From assembly GCA_947628675.1 (NCBI GenBank), contig CANRAR010000001.1:124001-188000 (forward strand): a stretch of DNA of 64,000 nucleotides, read 5' to 3'. Source of the stretch: an uncultured Clostridia bacterium. GTDB taxonomy: Bacteria > Bacillota > Clostridia > Christensenellales > Borkfalkiaceae. This document shows, one piece after another, positions 19,918 to 33,302 of the stretch. Under the pieces are notes generated by a model. The model was not told the DNA's origin. It ran no database searches and saw nothing but the letters and a program-made list of their open reading frames with translations. The stretch's first letter is position 1. Every line of letters starts with the position of its first letter. Position numbers and translations under genes: made by a program.

Positions 19918-20139
19918 ATGTCGAAAGACGACGTCATCGAAGCCGAGGGCAGGGTCATTGAAGCCCTCCCCAACGCAACGTTCAAGGTAAAACTTTCCAA
20001 CGGTCACGTCATCACGGCGTATATCTCGGGAAAGCTCCGCATGAACTACATCCGCATCATCGAAGGCGACGCGGTGAAACTCGAAATGAGCCCCTACGAT
20101 CTCACCAAGGGGCGCATCACCTGGCGGTCGAAGAACTGA
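19918..20139 (+). CDS. infA: Translation initiation factor IF-1
   Basis: [51 protein letters not shown]. Confidence 0.96.
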
Positions 20140-20222: not shown

Positions 20223-20292
20223 CGCGTCATTCTGAACCCCCTTGCGGGGTGAAGAATCCCGACCAACGAAGTCCGACCCAACCAACTCCCCC
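20223..20292 (+). repeat. Dispersed hairpin element, copy 1
   Basis: cgcgtcATTCTGAaccccCTTGCggggtGAAGAATcccgaccaacgaagtccgacccaacc. Confidence 0.8.
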
Positions 20293-20329
20293 GCGCCCGT
20301 TCTCCGCGCACCGCTCCCCCTCGGAGCCC

Positions 20330-20398
20330 CGCGTCATTCTGAACCCCCTTGCGGGGTGAAGAATCCCGACCAACGAAGTCCGATCCAACCGACTCCCC
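20330..20398 (+). repeat. Dispersed hairpin element, copy 2
   Basis: Near-identical to copy 1 (cgcgtcattctgaaccccc...gaccaacgaagtccgatccaaccgactccccc). Confidence 0.8.
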
Positions 20399-20456
20399 CG
20401 CGTCATGTTGAGGCGTAGCCGAAACATCCCGACCAACGAAGTCCGACCCAACCAAA
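20399..20456 (+). repeat. Dispersed hairpin element, copy 3 (divergent stem, same flanks)
   Basis: cgcgtcATGTTGAggcGTAgccGAAACATcccgaccaacgaagtccgacccaacc. Confidence 0.75.
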
Positions 20457-25107: not shown

Positions 25108-25182
25108 AAGCTCCCTGCCGTGCTCCGCAAAAAAACCGCGCCGCGCGGCGCGGTTTTTTTTGCGGAGCACGGCAGGGAGCTT
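25108..25182. repeat. Very long near-perfect hairpin
   Basis: aagctccctgccgtgctccgcaaaaaaaccgcgcc...ggcgcggttttttttgcggagcacggcagggagctt (one bulged T). Confidence 0.85.
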
Positions 25183-30534: not shown

Positions 30535-30644
30535 CGTATTCCTTCCTTCGGAGGGGGCGGCGGAAAAAAATCGGTTAGTCGTCCTCCACTCACGTTGAAT
30601 TTGTCGAAAGAAATTCAACGCAATAAAAAAACTGTGAGGGCTTT

Positions 30645-30897
30645 TTTTGTTGACGTCCACCGAAGCGGTAGCGTAGCAGGTATCTCCCGCAAAGCTACCT
30701 CATGGCACACGCAGGACACCGTTTAGTGCTGCTGTATCCCTACCCTGACACGGTTCGCGGGCATACGTTGCATGAGACCTTGTGATCAACGACCCTTACT
30801 GCGCGCGGCCTTCCATGGACGGCACCGAGAAAAGCGTTCGGCTCTGCTATAGCGGATTGCAGATACAGGGCACCGCTAACTCCCCGCCTATCACAGC
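30645..30897 (-). ncRNA. ffs: Bacterial large SRP RNA (Alu + S domain)
   Basis: Minus strand contains GUGUCAGG-GUA-GGGA-UAC-AGCAGC (GNRA tetraloop in the S-domain apical hairpin), GCGUGUGCC...GAGGUAGCU, and 5' GGCGGGGAGUUAGCGGUGCCCUGUAUCUGCAAUCCGCUAUAGCAG typical of Alu-domain SRP RNA; ends approximate. Confidence 0.88.
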
Positions 30898-33176: not shown

Positions 33177-33209
33177 CCCCCTCCCCCGCGCAAAACGCGG
33201 GGGAGGGGG
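33177..33209. repeat. CCCCCTCCCC-type hairpin element, copy 2
   Basis: ccccctcccccgcg-caaaa-cgcgggggaggggg. Confidence 0.75.
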
Positions 33210-33302
33210 CGGACTTCGTTGTTCGGGATTCTTCACGCGCCGCCCGCGCCCTGCCCCGCTTGTGCGGGGGGCAGGGCGCGGGCGGCGGCTCAGAATGACG
33301 CG
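33210..33302 (-). repeat. Dispersed hairpin element, copy 4 (inverted, enlarged apical stem)
   Basis: Minus strand: cgcgtcATTCTGA-gccgccgcccgcgccctgcccc...ggggcagggcgcgggcggc-gcgtGAAGAATcccgaacaacgaagtccg. Confidence 0.75.

Follow-up and report, generated by a model that had tools for sequence, protein, structure and literature searches.

Tandem G.A hairpin repeats between infA and rpmJ belong to a widespread family probably partnered by a small GIY-YIG nuclease

Introduction

The Ssn proteins are reportedly a family of site-specific single-stranded GIY-YIG nucleases, which Chenal et al. are said to have described in Nat Commun in 2025. The founding member is reportedly from Neisseria meningitidis. 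Together with its Neisseria repeat, Ssn is said to limit or shape the uptake and recombination of single-stranded DNA (ssDNA) at repeats. We take this family to be the closest known enzyme to the nuclease discussed below.

The CGTC-tagged REPs, among them dRS3 of Neisseria and RPE-4/6 of Rickettsia, were defined by Di Nocera et al. in 2013 (PMC3733652). In that survey repeats with more than one mismatch were discarded, no dedicated transposase was found and Bacillota were not listed (PMC3733652). The hairpins described here were found between infA and rpmJ in the genome of an uncultured Clostridia bacterium, in a stretch of 64,000 nucleotides that was analysed as a whole and is called the window. 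They belong to a family of short, repeated DNA hairpins that is very widespread. A small GIY-YIG nuclease is probably the partner that recognises them, and perhaps also spreads them.

Hairpin copies in the window

Three direct hairpin copies occupy positions 20223-20445, downstream of infA (IF-1; 19918..20139, +) and upstream of rpmJ (L36; 20481..20597, +), and their arms read as an earlier note on this DNA had stated. The head CGCGTC and the tail CCCGACCAACGAAGTCCG are common to all three. In copy 1 (20223..20275, +) the head (20223-20228) is followed by the left arm ATTCT (20229-20233), a GA step (20234-20235), the apical part ACCCC/CTTGC/GGGGT (20236-20250), a second GA (20251-20252), the right arm AGAAT (20253-20257) and the tail (20258-20275). 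Copy 2 (20330..20382, +) has the same hairpin and tail, and the two copies are 97% identical over 74 nt. Copy 3 (20399..20445, +) retains the head, the tail and GA/GA, whereas its outer arms, ATGTT/AACAT, have changed in a compensatory manner and its apical stem is shorter and carries a GTA loop (GGC-GTA-GCC).

The fourth copy that the note had counted was located on the opposite strand (33209..33302, -), 3' of a zinc-ribbon protein gene. Its head and tail (CCCGAACAACGAAGTCCG) are as in copies 1-3, and its apical stem is long, at about 20 bp. The window contains five occurrences of CGTCATNNTGA, where 0.36 would be expected, and four of the tail with up to three mismatches, where 0.14 would be expected.

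Two other features of the window were observed. A bacterial large SRP RNA lies at 30632-30896 (-; Rfam RF01854, 160.7 bits), and a long near-perfect palindrome with arms of about 30 bp, intergenic and terminator-like, lies at 25108-25182.

A widespread family of hairpins

The host genome (1.53 Mb, 34 contigs) contains 44 tails and 43 hairpins of the form GTCATNNTGA...GAANNATC, a count made with a first genome pattern that undercounted other arm types; the reversed-pattern control gave none. The search of the genome and its relatives that had been proposed thus yielded further copies, with 187 in the genus. Conservation is sharply bounded, extending from the CGC ahead of GTCAT to about 17 nt beyond the hairpin. 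The minimal form, GTCATNNTGAGCGNAGCGAANNATC, is present in at least 120 stretches from at least 15 phyla, including Acidobacteriota, Bacteroidota, Chloroflexota, Nitrospirota, Omnitrophota, Planctomycetota, Patescibacteria, Cyanobacteria and Bacillota. The genes beside the hairpins in many phyla are mostly housekeeping genes. Inverted doublets at close range are over-represented and dominate among hairpin pairs, as expected of deletion derivatives. An Rfam scan of the hairpins matched no family, and a literature search with the literal repeat sequence gave only primer coincidences among the matches listed.

A recurrent module, CGCGTCATTCTGCCCCGCGCTTGTCCTAC, lies 5' of many copies in the host genome (e.g. 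at L052); it starts like a head, lacks the hairpin and is a decayed or half element. The minimal hairpin GTCATCCTGAGCGAAGCGAAGGATCT translates to VILSEAKDL in one frame and probably gives rise to spurious ORF annotations.

The infA-rpmJ spacer itself is an ordinary place, one of many spacers that accumulate such repeats. Among 30 congeners it measures 35-640 nt. Many of these spacers are 35-65 nt long, and the view of infA and rpmJ as normally nearly adjacent is partly borne out. A GA hairpin is present in the spacer of 4 of the 30 congeners (the host genome included), and the hairpin types differ. A role specific to the ribosomal operon is not supported: the element is dispersed throughout the genome and in many phyla, its orientation to neighbouring genes is little biased, and few congeners have it at this site.

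Covariation and hairpin architecture

Two stem positions (NN) in each arm were unconstrained in the first pattern, and they form Watson-Crick pairs in 181 of 187 genus copies. When only distinct genus copies are counted, 98 of 104 pair, compared with a mean of 44 and a maximum of 59 after shuffling, and across phyla 136 of 143 copies pair. A further test, in which the arms were fully free, used 77 distinct minimal hairpins, 500 shuffles and slid-register controls. Each of the five outer pairs was found to have changed on both arms, giving 64 cells against 15.9 +/- 5.0 in the shuffled sets (0/500) and 0-15 in the slid controls. The covariation of the outer stem around a fixed GA/GA, first noticed in the window, is thus confirmed at both levels, that of the genus and that of the wider set of at least 15 phyla.

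The GA/GA internal loop is a real constraint, because it is present when the search did not require it: in 37 of 48 tail-anchored and 131 of 210 neighbour-gene-anchored hairpins. The apical triloop is of the GNA type in 75 of 116 hairpins and is closed by a C-G pair in 101 of 116. The d(GCGAAGC) mini-hairpins belong with the GNA loop series. Such DNA mini-hairpins have been described as extraordinarily stable (PMC10527192).

Selection on the folded single strand, not on the primary sequence, is well supported. The earlier note had suggested selection on a folded RNA or ssDNA, which the covariation backs, and it was right to keep the ssDNA option. Nearest-neighbour DNA folding gave weak z-scores (-1.1, -0.3, +0.6 and -1.0). 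The nearest-neighbour model is not known to give credit for sheared G.A pairs or GNA loops, and these values were set aside for that reason.

Linkage to a GIY-YIG nuclease gene

The lead was a Pedobacter locus (L142), in which a small GIY-YIG gene is situated between two hairpins. The only such nuclease gene found in the host genome lies outside the window, within a hairpin cluster (G000:C1:88362-88649, -). A hairpin and its tail end just 5' of the ATG of this gene, and the TGA of the following CGCGTCATTCTGA head serves as its stop codon. Close linkage of hairpin and nuclease gene is also found in congeners (L256, L259, L261 and L272).

The nuclease is a small protein of about 95 aa (96 aa in the host genome), consisting of a single GIY-YIG domain (Pfam PF01541, 4e-15). 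Nine residues, Y7, Y18, G20, T22, R28, H32, Y44, E65 and K69, are invariant in 35 homologs and include the GIY-YIG catalytic set of Y7, Y18, R28 and E65. The AlphaFold model has a pLDDT of 94, and its nearest folds are the UPF0213 and Slx1 GIY-YIG domains.

The linkage was evaluated in a class sample of 292 Clostridia genomes that were not chosen for hairpins, and the GIY-YIG matches fell into two groups, namely strong homologs, with E below 1e-19, and weakly matching paralogs that are YhbQ-like. Hairpins are present at the loci of 12 of 13 strong homologs (the host's own excluded) and at none of the 16 nearest paralogs (p 2.5e-7, Fisher); at UvrC loci in the same sample the figure is 1/16. 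At least five hairpins are found in 13 of 14 nuclease-bearing genomes, compared with 21 of 278 others (p 9e-13, Fisher).

The linkage to this nuclease subfamily extends to many phyla. Nuclease homologs were found in 34 of 50 hairpin-bearing genomes, and 33 of 50 homologs are flanked on both sides by GA hairpins no more than 250 bp away. The usual layout at 50 loci is an upstream hairpin on the same strand as the gene, the gene, and a downstream hairpin on the opposite strand, the median distances being 37 and 43 nt, respectively. Where a homolog lacks GA hairpins, other CGTC-type hairpins often take their place. In a Nitrospirales genome (L292), for example, the nuclease homolog is flanked by classical GTC-ATTCCCGA...TCGGGAAT-CCA hairpins. 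With relaxed detection, CGTC-type hairpins were found on both sides of 39 of 49 homologs across phyla and on at least one side of 48 of 49, against both sides of 1 of 20 paralogs and none of 40 Y1 transposases.

Five genomes (G388, G185 and G213, with 193, 163 and 160 hairpins, respectively, and G203 and G265) contain about 70-190 hairpins each and no detected strong homolog. In the host's own genus, G005 and G016 likewise have many hairpins and no detected nuclease. A tandem arrangement was observed in the complete genome G193 (L324, 2233-3060), where four CGTC hairpins lie as direct tandem copies, spaced about 263 bp apart, 3' of a GIY-YIG gene.

Dispersed hairpin-gene-hairpin units

One genome (G100) contains four hairpin-gene-hairpin units of about 590 bp at unrelated loci, which are 89-92% identical in pairwise comparison. 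Their similarity extends slightly beyond the hairpins and stops at imperfect inverted repeats. At L288, L343, L344 and L345 the units are framed by these imperfect terminal inverted repeats, CATAAGCGTTAACTTAA...TTAAGTTAGCGCCTATG. Because the terminal repeats lie outside the hairpins, the G100 unit may be a nested element that was moved by another transposase. Another genome, G158, has a pair of 436-bp units that are bounded by hairpins and 91% identical to each other. The units of both genomes show dispersal of the unit, leaving apart which enzyme moved it.

Origin and function of the hairpins

We consider it likely that the hairpins are a non-autonomous CGTC/TGTC-tagged REP with a tandem G.A step and that their partner is the small GIY-YIG nuclease, the two forming a pair like RAYT and REPIN. 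The nuclease would recognise the CGTC-strand hairpin as single-stranded DNA, made available on the lagging-strand template or in transforming or repair ssDNA, and would nick it beside the tag. Ordinary repair or recombination at the cut would then copy the element in a homing-like manner. We know of no strand joining by GIY-YIG enzymes, so that mobilisation would need host repair. The hairpin-rich genomes with no detected nuclease and the terminal inverted repeats of the G100 units also speak against this reading. Solitary and paired hairpins in spacers such as infA-rpmJ would persist as relics or as trans-mobilised copies. A bolder version, in which the CGTC/GA hairpins and the nuclease constitute an autonomous, transposase-free element that spreads by hairpin-directed ssDNA cutting and host repair and is the missing mobiliser of CGTC REPs in many phyla, is put forward tentatively.

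The same linkage data fit an arrangement in which the nuclease limits or shapes ssDNA uptake and recombination at sites that the repeats mark, the enzyme being a genome-dynamics factor and the hairpins being amplified otherwise. The small size and single domain of the nuclease, which has no strand-transfer domain, and the genomes that are rich in hairpins but have no detected nuclease, agree with such an arrangement. We nevertheless regard it as rather unlikely, since the presence of several copies of the hairpin-gene-hairpin unit at unrelated loci suggests that the gene travels with its own hairpins. A tyrosine transposase of the Y1 type (RAYT/IS200) was also considered as the mover, given that the size, tag and inverted doublets resemble those of GTAG REPs and REPINs (PMC3733652, PMC3116915). 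However, Y1_Tnp is absent from the host genome, the presence of Y1 does not track hairpin abundance in the genus, and the 40 Y1 genes without hairpins on both sides come from hairpin-bearing genomes of other phyla. This candidate was rejected as largely refuted by the absence of Y1 linkage in the genus and beyond, and such a mover is very hard to credit.

It is also improbable that the hairpins act as RNA, that is, as transcribed structures for mRNA stability, attenuation or termination at infA-rpmJ. Copies 1-3 are all on the coding strand of a transcribed operon and the folded strand could form as RNA too, but the hairpin is missing from this spacer in most congeners and matches no Rfam family. 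Across phyla there is little orientation bias, 64 hairpins being co-directional and 51 anti-directional with respect to neighbouring genes, and the apical triloops belong to the GNA type favoured in DNA. The GNA triloops with C-G closure, together with the lack of a clear strand bias, point to a folded strand that acts as single-stranded DNA rather than RNA.

CGTC REPs were surveyed without a dedicated transposase coming to light, and a nuclease gene that the repeats bracket in most homologs studied, in many phyla, makes their origin testable. The structural rule of tag, arm, GA/GA and GNA loop could match each nuclease to its hairpin, which would be useful for ssDNA-specific enzymes. If the authors of the Ssn work have already mapped hairpins to enzymes, the new elements are the GA/GNA rule, the unit architecture and the connection to CGTC REPs.

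Comparison with known systems

Like the CGTC REPs, the present hairpins have an unpaired CGTC/TGTC tag at one end (C or T almost always precedes GTC), a stem that starts with complementary AT (the arms are mostly ATNN[TC]) and dispersed intergenic copies with inverted dimers; at L292 a nuclease homolog is likewise flanked by CGTC hairpins of the classical kind, which have CCA tails. CGTC REPs are defined by a stem of 8-9 bp with at most one mismatch and a loop of 4-5 nt, whereas the present hairpins depart from this description by their tandem GA/GA mismatch, variable apical stem and mostly 3-nt GNA loops. In place of a short tail fitting CCA there is a long genome-specific tail, CCCGAnCAACGAAGTCCG, and TCT/TCA and others occur elsewhere. 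No associated transposase gene was reported for the CGTC REPs; the hairpins here have no Y1 link but a strong link to the GIY-YIG nuclease.

The Ssn enzymes, as they are said to be, share with the present nuclease a small GIY-YIG domain with the catalytic Tyr, Tyr, Arg and Glu, and a gene tied to a repeated cognate sequence in the genome. Ssn reportedly cuts only ssDNA, and at specific sites, whereas the nuclease described here is known from its sequence and model and its ssDNA cutting is putative. UPF0213/YhbQ-type GIY-YIG proteins (PDB 1zg2, 1ywl) have the same fold and catalytic residues, but form a distinct subfamily; in the class sample, GA hairpins lie near 0 of the 16 nearest paralogs. 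The RAYT/REPIN system (PMC2817692, PMC3116915) resembles the present one in having an enzyme gene flanked by repeats and non-autonomous inverted doublets; there the pair consists of a Y1 transposase and a GTAG tag, and here of a GIY-YIG nuclease and a CGTC tag.
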